Shown here: piece by piece, positions 10,253 to 15,951 of the stretch
How the letters are laid out: every line of letters starts with the position of its first letter
How positions within the stretch are numbered: position 1 is the first letter of the stretch
DNA from: a virus
Virus record (IMG/VR): IMGVR_UViG_3300025617_000136
Coordinates: 1-21,345 of that record
Reading direction: 5' to 3' (one strand)
DNA length: 21,345 nt
Made by a program: the position numbers and the translations under genes
Notes under the pieces: generated by a model
Databases searched by the model: none
What the model was told of the DNA's origin: nothing
The model's input: only the letters and a program-made list of their open reading frames with translations

Positions 10253-12589
10253 ATGAAGATACCTACATATACCTCTGGTGTCGCCCCTACGAGCGAAGCC
10301 CCTGGCCGCAGCTTTTCTTCGCGGATGAGTGCGCAACCGTTTGTTGCCGAAGCCCAGGCTAGAGGCGATGTGTTCGGTGAGGCGGCGCAACAGATCGGCG
10401 CTTACTCACAGATGCGTTACAAGGCTGCGCGTGAAACGCAGATCAGCGAAAAGGTGCTGGCCGCAGAAGAGGCGCTGCGCGAAAAAGCGCGTGAGTTCTC
10501 TAACACGCCGACCGGCAAACTGGGGTCTGTCTTTAACGATGGCGGTGACCCTAACGAGGGCATGTGGTCTAAGTCTACGTCTGAGACGCTGACGACACTT
10601 CTTAGCGATGTTAAGGACCGCGAGTCTCGCAGGATCCTTACTGACCGCTACAACCAGATGGAACTTACGCAACGGTTCCGTTTGCGCGGCGTTGTCGATA
10701 GCAAGCTAGAGGCTGCAACGGCTGCGGCGCGTGCGGCACAAATGCGCAATGCAGAGTCGGTTCTTTCGCAAGCACAGAATGTTGACGAGATTACGGCGGC
10801 TCTTGGCAACGTAGGCGTTGATTCCGCACGTCTTGGCGCGCTGGGCCTGGGCGATCCTAACGCTCTTAAAAAGCAAGAGTATGCGTTGCTGCTAAACGGC
10901 GCTAACTCGAATGTGATGGCGTACCTCAACCAGCAAGAGGTTCCGTCCGAGGCTGCGGAAAGATTGCGCTTGGCATTGCGCGAAGATGACGCGACCTTGG
11001 CCGGTGACGCGCAGGTGCAGTTCGCCATGCTCAAGATGTTGCCACTTGCTGACCAGGCTAAGATCCTGGCGGCTGCGTCACGCACCGCAAACTTCATCGA
11101 CGCCCCCACAGAGGCAGAGAAGCGCGCAGAGCGCCTTGCTGACGGTTATGCGGTAGAGGCAGGCAAGCAGATCACATCGTACACTGACGACCTTCAAAAC
11201 GGCTATGCGCTGCCGGATGGCACGATCGAGGGTATCGAGGCCACGATCAACCAGGTGGCGGATCGCTTGGACCCGAATGTGCAGGCTGAGTTGCGGCGCG
11301 GCGTGGACGATCTGCAATACATCAACGGCATTGTTAAGGATGTGCGCAGCTTTGCATCGCCAAGCATGGTCCAGGACAAGATCATGGAACTTGAGGCGCA
11401 AAAATCGCAAGGTCTTGTTGATGTAGATGAGCGCGATCGCGTTGAACTGGCGCTTGATTTTATGCGCGGCTTCAAGAAGAAGATGGTCGATGGCCTGGCG
11501 TCTGACCCCATTGCCTACGCTTCGCGCGCAGGATCTTACGTTGTCGAGCCGATCGATCTAAGCCAACAAGCGGTGCAGAGCGGAGAAGCGGCGGCGTCTA
11601 TCCAAAACCGCGTGCAGACTGCCCTAGCAATCCGGGGCCACTATGAGTTGACCGGTCCATTGCGGGTATTCACCACAGAGGAAACGTCCCAGATTTCGGC
11701 GCAGTTTGCCCAAGGTAACGCGATGCAGAAGATGGGGTCGATTGCTGGGATCAATCAGACATTTGGGAAATATGCGCCCGATGTTATTGCGCAGATCGCA
11801 GACAAAGAGCCGATGTTCGCTCATGTCGCCGGTCTTGTTAGCGATGGGCGTTTCCCTGCCTCTGAGATTATCTTGAAGGGCATGGAGCGGATCGAGGCTG
11901 GCTTCAAGCCGTTCGAGGGTGCGGATGTTGCTGTAGCCAAAGAGGAGTTCAGTGCTTTGACCGGTGCCGCGCTTGCAATGCTACCGGCTGAAACCGGGGC
12001 TAACTTGCGCAAAGGGATCTATGACGGTGCGCAAGCGTACTACGCAGAGATCATTGCGCGCAGGCCAGACAAAACATTCGATGAGAGCCTGTGGGCAGAA
12101 AGCGTCCAGGCTGCGAGTGGCTTCGACAAGCAAACTGGCAGGGGCGGGATCCAGGAAGTGCGCGGCGTGCCTACGCTGTTGTCGCCTAACTACACTGCGG
12201 AAAACCTGGAAGATGCTATGGGGGCGCTATCCCTGGAAGCCTTAGAGGAAGCAACCGGTTTAGAAGGTACGATCGACGCTGACCTGGCACTGGATATTCG
12301 AGATGATGACGACCATCGATTGCAGGTTCTTGGCAAGCGCAACGGGCGCGTTGTTTATGGCGTAGTGTATGGTGAGTTCGGTGACTCGCTTTACGGTATG
12401 ATGGCAGACAGCGATGGTGTGCCAATCCGGTTTAGCGGTGAGCGGCTGATTCAATCTGTCACTGAGATCTCTAACAGGCCAGCAACGCCTGCTCCGTTCA
12501 TTCCGACAATAGATCAGACTTTTGGTGGTTCATTAAGCGCACAAGAGATCCAAGAGTATCTAGACAAAGTGGAGGATGAGCAGCGATGA
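10253..12589 (+). CDS. Large internal virion protein, gp15 position
   Basis: This encodes 778 aa, near the length of T7 gp15 (747), and follows the gp14-like gene as gp15 does. Most of it is predicted charged and Ala-rich helix: about 36-90, 120-180, 255-345 and 360-410. There is no signal peptide, membrane segment or enzyme motif that I can see, and no lytic transglycosylase signature. The C-terminal 130 residues are less helical and include a strand-like part (about 690-725). Role inferred from position and build: part of the ejected tube that spans the periplasm during DNA entry. AAGGG (10241-10245) lies 7 nt before the ATG; the end overlaps the next gene by ATGA. Confidence 0.75.
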   Translation: MKIPTYTSGVAPTSEAPGRSFSSRMSAQPFVAEAQARGDVFGEAAQQIGAYSQMRYKAARETQISEKVLAAEEALREKAREFSNTPTGKLGSVFNDGGDPNEGMWSKSTSETLTTLLSDVKDRESRRILTDRYNQMELTQRFRLRGVVDSKLEAATAAARAAQMRNAESVLSQAQNVDEITAALGNVGVDSARLGALGLGDPNALKKQEYALLLNGANSNVMAYLNQQEVPSEAAERLRLALREDDATLAGDAQVQFAMLKMLPLADQAKILAAASRTANFIDAPTEAEKRAERLADGYAVEAGKQITSYTDDLQNGYALPDGTIEGIEATINQVADRLDPNVQAELRRGVDDLQYINGIVKDVRSFASPSMVQDKIMELEAQKSQGLVDVDERDRVELALDFMRGFKKKMVDGLASDPIAYASRAGSYVVEPIDLSQQAVQSGEAAASIQNRVQTALAIRGHYELTGPLRVFTTEETSQISAQFAQGNAMQKMGSIAGINQTFGKYAPDVIAQIADKEPMFAHVAGLVSDGRFPASEIILKGMERIEAGFKPFEGADVAVAKEEFSALTGAALAMLPAETGANLRKGIYDGAQAYYAEIIARRPDKTFDESLWAESVQAASGFDKQTGRGGIQEVRGVPTLLSPNYTAENLEDAMGALSLEALEEATGLEGTIDADLALDIRDDDDHRLQVLGKRNGRVVYGVVYGEFGDSLYGMMADSDGVPIRFSGERLIQSVTEISNRPATPAPFIPTIDQTFGGSLSAQEIQEYLDKVEDEQR

Positions 12590-15500
12590 GCGGTATCCTT
12601 CGTGATGAACTAGACGATCTGGCAACAGCTTCGATTCCCAAGCGGAGCAAGAAGGTAGGCACTACGCTCGAAAACTTGAGCGCAGCGTTTGATGCTGGCC
12701 TCATGCAGAGCGGCAGTTCCGAAGAGCGTTACATCCAGGATACATGGGGACCTATCGTTGAGGAGATCCAAAACCTCACGGGTGAGAAGTTCAAAAACCC
12801 TGGCGACTATCTACGCCCTAATGTGTTTGCGATTTTGTCTGGTGAAGCGATGCGCGGCTATGGCCCGCGCCGGTACAGTTACGAGGCGCGCCAGATTGAA
12901 AAGTATGTGCGTGCAAACCGCGAGTCCTTGTCACCAGAGTTGGTTGCATCAGTGCTTGATACAGAGCGCGATGATTCCTGGCGTCAGGCTTCGCGTGATA
13001 AGTTCTTCTCTGAGCAAAACGAACTAGCAGAACTAACAGATCGATCGCCGGGGTTTGCGCGTGGCGCTGCCCGGTTTGTCGGGACCGTAGCTTCCGGGGC
13101 AGAAGATCCGCTGAACCAAGCGTTTATGATTACGCCTGTCGGGGCCAGTAGAACATTTTCCGGGCTAGTGCTAAAAGAAGCAATCGTGGGTGCGGGTGTT
13201 GAAGCGATCCAGCAACCGGATGTTAAGGATTGGTACGACAGCCTTGGCCTTGATTACGGCTGGGAAGAGTTTGCGCAGAATGTCGGTGGCGCTGCGCTTG
13301 TCGGCGGTGCGTTTCCAATCGCGTTGCGGGTCGGCGGGCAGACGGTTCGATTGACTGCGGAGCAAGCGCGCAAGGGCGGGCAGGTTATTTCTGACTTTGT
13401 TGTAAAGCGCGATGGCAAGAAACCGCCTGCGCTCGAAAGCGCGGAAATGCTAGAGGAAACCACAACGGCTGCGGCGGACTCTAACCCGATGGTCAAAACG
13501 CCAAAGTCTGACGTTGAGCACGCGGCACGGCTGCAAGAAGCAGAGATCGCAATCCACAACGGCCAGGTTCCTAAGATCTCAGATGCGCCCAGGAACGAGA
13601 TTGTTGTGTCCAGTGACATTAACGATGTTGGTGTTCGCGGTGCTGGCGCAGAGAAGTTCAACCCGGCAGATATTGAGATCGATGCTAAGACATTCCAGTT
13701 CAAAGAAGGCGGGGATGAGTTCGGTGTGACCGATCGCCTGGCAGGCGTTACGGAATGGGATCCGATCAAGGCTGGCACGGTTATTATCTTCGAGGGCCGG
13801 GATGGTCGCCTGTTTATTGCTGACGGACACCAGCGTGTAGGTTTGGCAAAGCGGATCCAGGAGGCGTCTCCGGATCAACAGGTAGAGTTGCTGGGCTACC
13901 GCTTGCGCGAGGTCGATGGCGTCACGCCCGAAGATGCGATGGTAATCGCGGCGCTGAAAAACATTTCGGAAGGTAGCGGTACAGTTGTCGATGCGGCCAA
14001 GATCGCACGCATTTCGCCAGAACTATTAGCTGGGCCTAACTTTCCCCAGGCTTCCGCGTTTGTTCGCCAGGCTCGACAGCTAGGCAACCTAGATGCAAAC
14101 GCATGGGGCATGATTAAGAACGAGGTGGTCCCGGCAAACTACGGTGCTGTTGTTGGCCGGTTGATCCCAGAAGATGCTGATATGCAGCTTGCCGCTATGG
14201 ATGTGCTATCCAAGGTAGAACCTGCTAACGAGTTCCAGGCAGAGTCAGTCATTCGTCAGGTTATGGAAAGCGGCGTCACCCGCGAAACCCAGGACAGTCT
14301 TTTCGGTGAAGAGACGCTGACCACCAGCTTGTTCCTGGAGCGAGCAAAGGTTCTCGATCGAGCGGTAAAGCAGTTGCGCAAAGATCGCGGTGCTTTCAAA
14401 AACCTCATTACAAATGCAGAGCGTCTAGAAGGCGAGGGCAACCAGCTTGCGCGCGATGCTAACCAAAGAAGGGCAAACGACGATGGCAAAGCAATCGCGC
14501 TCCTCCAAAGCCAAGCGAACCGCAAAGGCAACCTCTCAGACGCGCTCTCAGCCGCAGCAAGGCGCGGCAAAGAAACGGGAAACTTTAACGCCGCTGCAAG
14601 AGGCTTTGTCGAAGATGTCCGACGAGCAGTTGACGCAGGCGAATTTGACCGCGCAGAAGTTAGCGATGCTGGACGCTCTTTCGATTTTGCAGAAGAAAAA
14701 CCTACAATACGATCAGATGCGGACCAGCAAAGCCTAGACGAGTTTGACGATATGTTCGGCTCTGGCATGGAGCGCCAGGCCAACACGTTGCAAGAAGGTT
14801 TGATCCAGGATCTATCCGAGCCTCAGATCCAGATGCGTGATCTTGAACGCCTGGTTAAGTCTGGTGCGGACGAAGATGAAATCGTAAACCACCCTGCCGT
14901 GATTAACGCTGTTGAGGAAATGCAACAGCGCCCGCTCACTAGCGCCCAAGAGGGTTTCCCAAAAAGCCCGGACGACACTGCGGCTATTGAGTGGTTCGAC
15001 AATCGTAGATATATTACTAGCGCAAGCAACGAAGCTACCTATGACGACACGATCCAATACCTTATCAAAGGTGCGCGTGAACTAGGCTGGGTAGACGATA
15101 AACTTGATTTTCCTGTAGATGGTGTAGCAAAACAGCGTAAGGCTGCGATTATTCTTGGTCCTCCTGCGGCTGGTAAAAGCACTATTGCTAATCCCTTGGC
15201 GCGCAAGATGAACGCTGCGATTGTCGATGCGGACGAAGCCAAGAAGGTTATGCCGGAATACGAAGGTGGCATTGGCGCGAACGCGGTGCATGAAGAAAGT
15301 TCTTTGCTATCTGACATTGTTTTTAAGACACTGATGGAGCAAGGCGACAACCTTATCATTCCCAAGGTGGGCGGCAAAGCGGCCAGCATCGAGCGCACGA
15401 TTGCAATGCTCAAGGCTAAAGGCTATGAAGTAGACGTTGTAGATATGAAGGTCGGGCCTGCTGAAGCCATGAAGCGCATGATTGCGCGGTTCATTTCTAC

Positions 15501-15951
15501 GGGTAGACTTATCCCGCCGGACTATGTGCGGGCTACAGGTAGCAACCCAAGCAAAACATATGATGCAATAAAAGCGAAAGGATTGGCGGATGGCTATGCG
15601 CGAATCGACAACGAAGGGCCAAAGGATGCCTTTAAGGAAGTCCTCGAAGATGCCCGAAACCTCTTTGAAGGAGTCGAACTTCGACTTCGACGCAATGGAG
15701 TCGAGAGCGGAGCAGATGTCGGACGGACGGATCGGCCAGGCACTCTTGGAGAGGGCGCTCAAGAATTTGAACGAGTAGATCTGCCGACGATCGATGACGA
15801 TTTCTTAGACCGTGAGTTTACCATCGAGGTGCTTGACGAGTTCGACGCTAACGGTGAGCCTGTTGTTAGATCTGTTACATCTAAGCAACTTTTGGATGAG
15901 ATCGAGAAAGACGATGATATGATTGATGCGCTATCGAGGTGCCCGATATGA
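12586..15951 (+). CDS. Polyvalent internal virion protein: ParB-like domain plus zeta-toxin-type kinase
   Basis: This encodes 1121 aa. Residues 1-250 look like other large podovirus ejection proteins, with the conserved-looking GAGVEAIQQPDVKDWYDSLG (202-221), then LDYGWEEFAQNVGGA and a Gly/Ala hydrophobic segment (233-250). Residues about 355-450 look ParB-like, with IADGHQRVGLAKRI (411-424), a motif seen in ParB/Srx-fold domains of phage polyvalent proteins. Residues 850-1000 look like a zeta-toxin P-loop kinase: GPPAAGKST (858-866), VDADEAK (880-886), a His-Glu (902-903), NLIIPKVGG (922-930), then MKRMIARFISTGRLIPP (962-978) with likely catalytic Arg964/968 and Arg974. Zeta toxins phosphorylate UDP-N-acetylglucosamine or related substrates; the substrate here is unknown. 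GGAGG (12571-12575) lies 10 nt upstream. Two ORFs are nested in the +1 frame. Confidence 0.85.
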   Translation: MSGILRDELDDLATASIPKRSKKVGTTLENLSAAFDAGLMQSGSSEERYIQDTWGPIVEEIQNLTGEKFKNPGDYLRPNVFAILSGEAMRGYGPRRYSYEARQIEKYVRANRESLSPELVASVLDTERDDSWRQASRDKFFSEQNELAELTDRSPGFARGAARFVGTVASGAEDPLNQAFMITPVGASRTFSGLVLKEAIVGAGVEAIQQPDVKDWYDSLGLDYGWEEFAQNVGGAALVGGAFPIALRVGGQTVRLTAEQARKGGQVISDFVVKRDGKKPPALESAEMLEETTTAAADSNPMVKTPKSDVEHAARLQEAEIAIHNGQVPKISDAPRNEIVVSSDINDVGVRGAGAEKFNPADIEIDAKTFQFKEGGDEFGVTDRLAGVTEWDPIKAGTVIIFEGRDGRLFIADGHQRVGLAKRIQEASPDQQVELLGYRLREVDGVTPEDAMVIAALKNISEGSGTVVDAAKIARISPELLAGPNFPQASAFVRQARQLGNLDANAWGMIKNEVVPANYGAVVGRLIPEDADMQLAAMDVLSKVEPANEFQAESVIRQVMESGVTRETQDSLFGEETLTTSLFLERAKVLDRAVKQLRKDRGAFKNLITNAERLEGEGNQLARDANQRRANDDGKAIALLQSQANRKGNLSDALSAAARRGKETGNFNAAARGFVEDVRRAVDAGEFDRAEVSDAGRSFDFAEEKPTIRSDADQQSLDEFDDMFGSGMERQANTLQEGLIQDLSEPQIQMRDLERLVKSGADEDEIVNHPAVINAVEEMQQRPLTSAQEGFPKSPDDTAAIEWFDNRRYITSASNEATYDDTIQYLIKGARELGWVDDKLDFPVDGVAKQRKAAIILGPPAAGKSTIANPLARKMNAAIVDADEAKKVMPEYEGGIGANAVHEESSLLSDIVFKTLMEQGDNLIIPKVGGKAASIERTIAMLKAKGYEVDVVDMKVGPAEAMKRMIARFISTGRLIPPDYVRATGSNPSKTYDAIKAKGLADGYARIDNEGPKDAFKEVLEDARNLFEGVELRLRRNGVESGADVGRTDRPGTLGEGAQEFERVDLPTIDDDFLDREFTIEVLDEFDANGEPVVRSVTSKQLLDEIEKDDDMIDALSRCPI
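14467..14473 (+). promoter_or_regulatory. Internal Shine-Dalgarno for nested ORF 1
   Basis: AGAAGGG inside the polyvalent gene lies 9 nt before ATG 14483 in the +1 frame. It favours this ATG over the upstream in-frame ATGs at 14447 and 14456. Confidence 0.45.
14483..14737 (+). CDS. Nested overlapping gene (+1 frame) encoding an 84-aa basic/helical protein
   Basis: The ORF lies wholly within the polyvalent gene. The product has a basic, Lys/Arg/Ser/Gln-rich head (residues 1-35) and a long helix with regular leucines (LTPLQEALSKMSDEQLTQAN, 37-56, continuing to about 78). In this frame the codons are those favoured by neighbouring genes (TTG leucine, GCG, CAG, AAG). The host frame over the same bases uses CTC for 4 of 5 leucines and CGA, AGA or AGG for 5 of 9 arginines, unlike the rest of that gene. 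The overlap covers host residues 633-717, a linker before the kinase domain. No membrane segment or lipobox, so it is not a spanin. Function unknown. Confidence 0.55.
   Translation: MAKQSRSSKAKRTAKATSQTRSQPQQGAAKKRETLTPLQEALSKMSDEQLTQANLTAQKLAMLDALSILQKKNLQYDQMRTSKA
15577..15582 (+). promoter_or_regulatory. Internal Shine-Dalgarno for nested ORF 2
   Basis: AAAGGA lies 7 nt before the +1-frame ATG 15590, an optimal spacing in the middle of the host gene. Confidence 0.4.
15590..15778 (+). CDS. Second nested overlapping gene (+1 frame), 62 aa
   Basis: This small ORF lies just downstream of the kinase domain, over host residues 1002-1064. The first 25 residues are basic. The rest (NFDFDAMESRAEQM at 30-43, then GRIGQALLERALKNLNE) looks like an amphipathic helix pair. 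The host frame here uses CGA for 5 of 8 arginines and GGA for 5 of 9 glycines, both unusual elsewhere in the window, while the +1 frame reads with ordinary codons (TCG, AAG, TTG). It has a well-placed Shine-Dalgarno. No membrane segment. An alternative start is ATG 15596 (spacing 13 nt). It could be a chance ORF, but the codon shift argues against that. Confidence 0.45.
   Translation: MAMRESTTKGQRMPLRKSSKMPETSLKESNFDFDAMESRAEQMSDGRIGQALLERALKNLNE
15936..15939 (+). promoter_or_regulatory. Ribosome binding site deciding the start of the 828-aa protein
   Basis: GAGG lies 8 nt before ATG 15948. A GTG at 15939 is in frame but overlaps this site, so the ATG, which forms ATGA with the preceding stop, is the likely start. 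Confidence 0.55.

Follow-up and report, generated by a model that had tools for sequence, protein, structure and literature searches.

A putative small gene nested in the +1 frame of a phage gene for a polyvalent-type protein, and a second candidate in the kinase module of the same gene

The window analysed here is a 21,345-base virus fragment from IMG/VR. It is a marine podovirus fragment with podovirus-type structural genes, including those for a terminase, a head-tail adaptor, a major head protein (73% identity to that of Pelagibacter phage HTVC034P), tail tube proteins and a T7 gp14-like protein. At 1584-2252 on the + strand lies a 222-aa ORF without a family match. Its C-terminus, KGRRSTILTG, resembles the GRRSTILTG end of HTVC010P gp03, which suggests that it is a longer version of that small structural-region protein. 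The gene of interest, referred to below as the host gene, follows the T7 gp14-like protein and is flanked by a 778-aa protein on one side and an 831-aa phrog_684 virion structural protein on the other. Its product is probably delivered into the cell with the DNA; this rests on gene position only, and a location in the virion is inferred. The features discussed are listed below.

12586..15951, + strand: host gene, encoding a 1121-aa polyvalent-type protein (P0002), in the ejection-protein region
13585..14784, + strand: conserved central region of the host protein (aa 334-733), matching phrog_10691; ORF A overprints its C-terminal edge
14467..14473, + strand: Shine-Dalgarno-like AGAAGGG, 9 nt before the start of ORF A; an AAGG/AAAGGG-type site is found in all A loci
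14483..14737, + strand: ORF A, putative nested +1-frame gene of 84 aa (MAKQSRSSKAKRTAKATSQTRSQPQQGAAKKRETLTPLQEALSKMSDEQLTQANLTAQKLAMLDALSILQKKNLQYDQMRTSKA), supported by conservation, synonymous depression and a stop-free frame
14483..14590, + strand: residues 1-36 of A, a basic (net +9) tail predicted to be disordered, from an AF2 model and a charge count
14621..14731, + strand: residues 47-83 of A, a long predicted helix that holds the conserved core LSDEQL..A...A..LAMLDALS.LQRK
15130..15600, + strand: zeta-toxin-like kinase domain of the host protein (Pfam PF06414, Zeta_toxin), with Walker A GPPAAGKS at 15157
15590..15778, + strand: ORF B, second putative nested gene (62 aa, +1 frame), located at the C-terminal edge of the kinase module

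The host protein meets the description of a polyvalent protein, that is, a large multidomain protein with exchangeable effector modules, as the kinase follows the same central domain in some hosts and is missing in others. Shortly downstream of A (14740-15951 of the window, and homologues) the C-terminal modules are swapped, being either a zeta-like kinase or unrelated sequence, and in one locus (L091) the kinase module has moved and lies upstream of A. The kinase assignment rests on a Pfam Zeta_toxin match at host aa 849-1005 (69.3 bits against a gathering cut-off of 22.3), which places A before the kinase domain, as had been proposed. The central domain has no Pfam match. A stretch of it (..IADGHQR..) has a ParB-like appearance, which neither Pfam nor PDB searches supported.

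ORF A was first put forward in an initial annotation made from the sequence of the window alone, and the ATG, the 84 codons, the AGAAGGG 9 nt upstream and the +1 phase inside the host ORF were all found as described there. That annotation also held that A uses codons like those of normal genes while the host frame over the same bases turns atypical. The second half of this statement stands, since among 84-codon windows of the window's genes the host codons under A rank at the 0.8th percentile. The first half stands only in part: the +1 codons of A beat 92% of other +1 frames, yet they lie at the 6th percentile of genuine genes. The length of A was dropped as evidence because the window holds five longer +1 ORFs (95-117 aa), and it is not significant. 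Two other frames were considered as coding candidates and rejected. An antisense ORF at 14256-14786 has stops in the antisense frames of most relatives, and the +2 frame has stops in all relatives and a dNN/dNS of 1.69. No nested gene is annotated in either of the two public relatives checked.

A search with A itself gave 37 contigs, in all of which A is intact inside the host frame. As A itself had served to select this set, a second round of homologues was obtained with the host sequence alone as query, and the tests were repeated. Homologues retrieved in this way keep the +1 frame open at that position until host identity falls to about 37-45%, and they include seven loci (L041-L045, L047 and L048) whose hosts are about 37-43% identical to that of the window; the sequence of another, L046, ends within A. 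A +1 product can be recognised in most of the 66 loci obtained with a host profile. Frequent +1 stops in homologues would have counted against the proposal, and they were not the rule: no internal +1 stop occurs over A in 26 lineages less than 75% identical. Under host-only coding with synonymous resampling, the joint log10 P of such stop-free frames is about -38, a figure that is optimistic because the lineages were treated as independent. Many +1 stops are found at the A site in three divergent hosts (L104, L121 and L122), and the host protein therefore does not force the +1 frame open. In other divergent hosts (L094, L095 and L049) the match is absent or weak.

A tree of 106 rows was built from host columns upstream of A. 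Full-length A is present in 71 rows. Another 18 form one clade (support 100) whose full-length members use a later start codon (MARK...) and have the same core helix; two of these (L108 and L111) are cut off before A and are placed there by kinship only. Eight rows with giant hosts carry a weak version of A, and nine have another product or none. On this evidence the putative gene is conserved over much of the host domain's tree. Its conservation extends to podovirus hosts, and probably to polyvalent proteins of 2,400-2,700 aa, where the +1 coding signature is only weak, at high divergence. Giant proteins of that size, in Ruegeria phage 45A6 (L050) and in L084, L088 and L089, have short +1 ORFs at the A site. 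In L100, L102 and L103 the A site, near codon 276 of the host segment as aligned, is occupied by a different-looking +1 protein (MTKKHLL...). Apart from a weak match it shows no recognisable relationship to A, and its coding signature is equally strong (second-half position-1/position-3 ratio 2.67, synonymous 2/82). With A as query, no relative was found among INPHARED phages and public phage records or in GTDB contigs. The host sequence as query found the domain in contigs of a few Rhodobacteraceae and other genomes, two of which (L126 and L128) have a clear A-like frame. No free-standing A was seen in the searches made; it always lay within its host domain.

Selection on the two frames was assessed from substitutions. 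Over 15 independent pairs, synonymous differences affect 8.8% of host codons over A (102/1164), as against 29.8% upstream (2274/7633; Fisher p = 2e-61) and 23.9% downstream, so that the reduction in synonymous variation by which the initial annotation had proposed to judge A is present as a drop of about 3.4-fold exactly over its frame. The dip begins at about codons 627-632, where the Shine-Dalgarno-like site and start lie, and recovers at 717-718, at the stop. It recurs in pairs fetched with the host only (9/68 vs 236/478, 10/69 vs 274/473, 5/78 vs 98/582 and 3/76 vs 68/512), and the other +1 ORFs of the host gene have none. Over the second half of A the ratio of changes at host position 1 to those at position 3 is 1.72, and it does not exceed 0.82 in any other 43-codon window. 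Such an excess is what +1 coding should produce, since the third position of each +1 codon falls on host position 1. The signature is strongest in the helix part of A (14621..14731). Three further clades taken separately gave second-half ratios of 2.44, 1.71 and 2.67 and synonymous counts of 6/98, 11/95 and 2/82; one of them uses the later start codon.

In an OLGenie-like count of our own implementation, dNN/dNS is 0.42 for A and 0.32 for its second half, compared with 0.52-1.0 in other 83-codon windows. A thus passes a test of purifying selection (dNN/dNS below background) overall and in its second half. Its first half (0.64) lies within the background and is supported by the synonymous depression only. 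By these comparisons the host frame is the more widely conserved of the two up to the middle of A and is a relaxed linker under the second half. A has the properties by which an overprinted gene is recognised: it lies wholly inside another gene, its start, frame and stop are conserved in homologues chosen without using it, and the synonymous reduction is confined to the overlap. The substitution patterns demonstrate purifying selection on its start, frame, stop and inferred amino-acid sequence.

The basic head and helix that the initial annotation had read in the product were borne out by an AF2 model, in which residues 1-36 are disordered and the helix of residues 47-83 is predicted with high confidence (pLDDT about 90-97 over residues 41-80). 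The helix does not qualify as an amphipathic coiled coil, as the hydrophobic moment of residues 47-82 is not above that of shuffled sequences. A lysis gene was also considered and rejected, there being no apparent hydrophobic stretch fit for a membrane segment. A fold search with the model gave nothing better than E = 3, and searches of Pfam, PHROGs, NCBIfam, PADLOC and PDB with the sequences of A and B gave no convincing match.

ORF B, like the depth of conservation of A, was not part of the initial annotation. The modules compared for it were those with a Walker A of the GPPA[AS]GKS type and enough downstream sequence. A +1 ORF of at least 55 aa is present in all 23 distinct complete kinase modules, 144 codons after Walker A in 21 and shifted by two codons in the other 2. 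B is also found in L091, where the kinase is upstream of A, and in L090 and L120 of another clade. Its second half combines 17% synonymous change with a position-1/position-3 ratio of 1.16, a combination unmatched among 178 30-codon windows outside A and B, and has a dNN/dNS of 0.43; the first half is only weakly supported. Judged from sequence comparison, B is under protein-level selection in the +1 frame, less completely than A. Its model has two short helices of low confidence. Four clusters of C-terminal modules that lack the kinase contain no nested ORF with a +1 signature. More distant phages (L130-L132) have zeta-like kinases with different Walker motifs, in which the position of B is not comparable.

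We consider it highly probable that A is a real translated gene nested, in the +1 frame, within the gene of a polyvalent-type phage protein. There are no expression data, and translation is inferred; the open +1 frame in homologues and the synonymous drop support the overprinted-gene interpretation first proposed. Ribosomes would start internally on the host mRNA at the ATG of A behind AGAAGGG, so that a single transcript would yield both the large protein and a small protein made of a disordered basic tail and a long helix. Our best guess, a tentative one, is that the small protein acts as a partner dedicated to the host module in which it is encoded, such as an assembly or holding factor, an inhibitor or a co-ejected accessory. 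That A and B are each a small partner of their encoding module is no more than a tentative proposal with no direct support; the function is inferred because A was never found outside its host domain and B is in every complete kinase module of this type, even a relocated one. An attractive special case, for which there are no inhibition data, is that B is an inhibitor that protects the producing cell from the zeta-like kinase.

A and B might instead be independent small effectors (DNA-binding, anti-host or anti-defence proteins) that are stored in linkers and do not act with the host protein. Taken together with other unlinked roles, this is a serious possibility, though one we would not call probable. 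A basic tail and a helix suit nucleic-acid binding, and both overlaps lie where the host frame is relaxed and overprinting is easiest, so that the positions of A and B are also explained without a functional link. Independent effectors sit less well with the lack of any free-standing A in the searches, with the presence of B in every complete kinase module of its type and with the absence of matches of either protein to defence or other families.

The remaining alternatives deny that a separate small protein is made. An RNA structure, packaging signal or regulatory element in the host gene could conserve nucleotides and leave the open +1 frame as a by-product, and it would also give strong synonymous conservation over A. 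Changes silent in both frames, however, are not reduced in A (0.81 changes per site, on few sites, about 16, vs 0.58 upstream), and it is the host-silent changes that alter A that are (0.12 per site vs 0.45 upstream). Since doubly silent sites vary freely, an RNA element does not explain the signal. Changes moreover cluster at third positions of the +1 frame, the limits match the Shine-Dalgarno-like site, ATG and stop, and the amino-acid core of A persists at a host identity of about 45%. We regard this explanation as very improbable.

Programmed frameshifting into the +1 frame, which would yield a truncated host protein with an alternative C-terminal tail and no free small protein, is compatible with the shared strand, the +1 phase and the long stop-free stretch, and some loci are open for many codons upstream of the ATG. 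The start site, however, is conserved beyond the need of the host frame. The ATG straddles a host Asp/Asn codon and the first base of the next codon, a G. Its T is thereby a free third base in the host frame and is nevertheless retained in 28 of the 29 lineages; the remaining lineage has its ATG one codon upstream, behind a stronger Shine-Dalgarno site. The Shine-Dalgarno-like site itself is weak or ordinary in strength, with a mean duplex energy over A loci of -4.6 against a background of -1.9, and 13% of random sites are equally good. In the clade with the later start an in-frame stop stands two codons before the ATG (..YRRR*TMARK..), so that upstream entry by frameshift is excluded there. 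No shared slippery site was noticed, although no systematic search for one was made. Frameshifting, too, has very little left to recommend it. The idea of a chance ORF, kept open only because the host protein is strongly conserved, could appeal to the five longer +1 ORFs of the window and to the conserved host sequence over the first half of A. It is refuted by the synonymous depression, the frame-specific substitutions, the stop-free frames, their repetition in separate clades and the lack of a dip in other host +1 ORFs.

With A read as a translated nested gene and B as a second, less complete case, polyvalent proteins may be two-layer genes, in which mosaic modules carry a nested +1 partner gene at their C-terminal edge that travels along with them. 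We offer this as a conjecture that may well prove wrong. If it is true, one stretch of DNA encodes both the kinase and nested B as a portable cassette of effector and partner. If nested genes prove to be part of the modules of injected proteins, a rescan of other polyvalent proteins is called for, and injected effectors may have small partners or inhibitors that have been overlooked. Nested genes of tailed phages are easily omitted from annotation, and A is a strongly supported case with a second one in the same gene. A and B represent two protein families that Pfam, PHROGs, NCBIfam and PADLOC lack, and they offer a clean system for testing the expression and retention of nested genes. Among the open-licence papers searched, none was found to describe nested genes within genes for polyvalent or ejection proteins.

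In epsilon/zeta toxin-antitoxin systems (PF06414), a small, mostly helical protein is encoded next to a zeta-type kinase. B resembles it in being a small protein, predicted to be mostly helical, encoded beside such a kinase, but B is nested in the kinase gene and not upstream of it, and neither A nor B has a sequence match to a known antitoxin family.

The host protein resembles the polyvalent proteins (PMC5512222) in being large and multidomain with exchangeable C-terminal modules, here a zeta-toxin-like kinase; its central domain is without a Pfam match, and the word 'overlapping' is absent from that paper. Like the genes of podovirus ejection proteins of the T7 gp14-16 type (PMC8954989), the host gene follows a T7 gp14-like protein and lies beside a virion structural protein, but no sequence match of its product to T7 gp15 or gp16 was found. 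That genes can arise by overprinting is established (PMC8227390), and overlapping genes are frequent in dsDNA viruses (PMC7017920). A resembles viral overprinted same-strand genes (PMC8227390, PMC7017920) in being a small alternative-frame protein that lies fully inside an older gene, with both frames constrained. It differs from them in that the overlap is in a mosaic polyvalent gene of a tailed phage and is conserved over much of the domain tree, and in that two separate modules of one gene here each appear to carry a nested gene.
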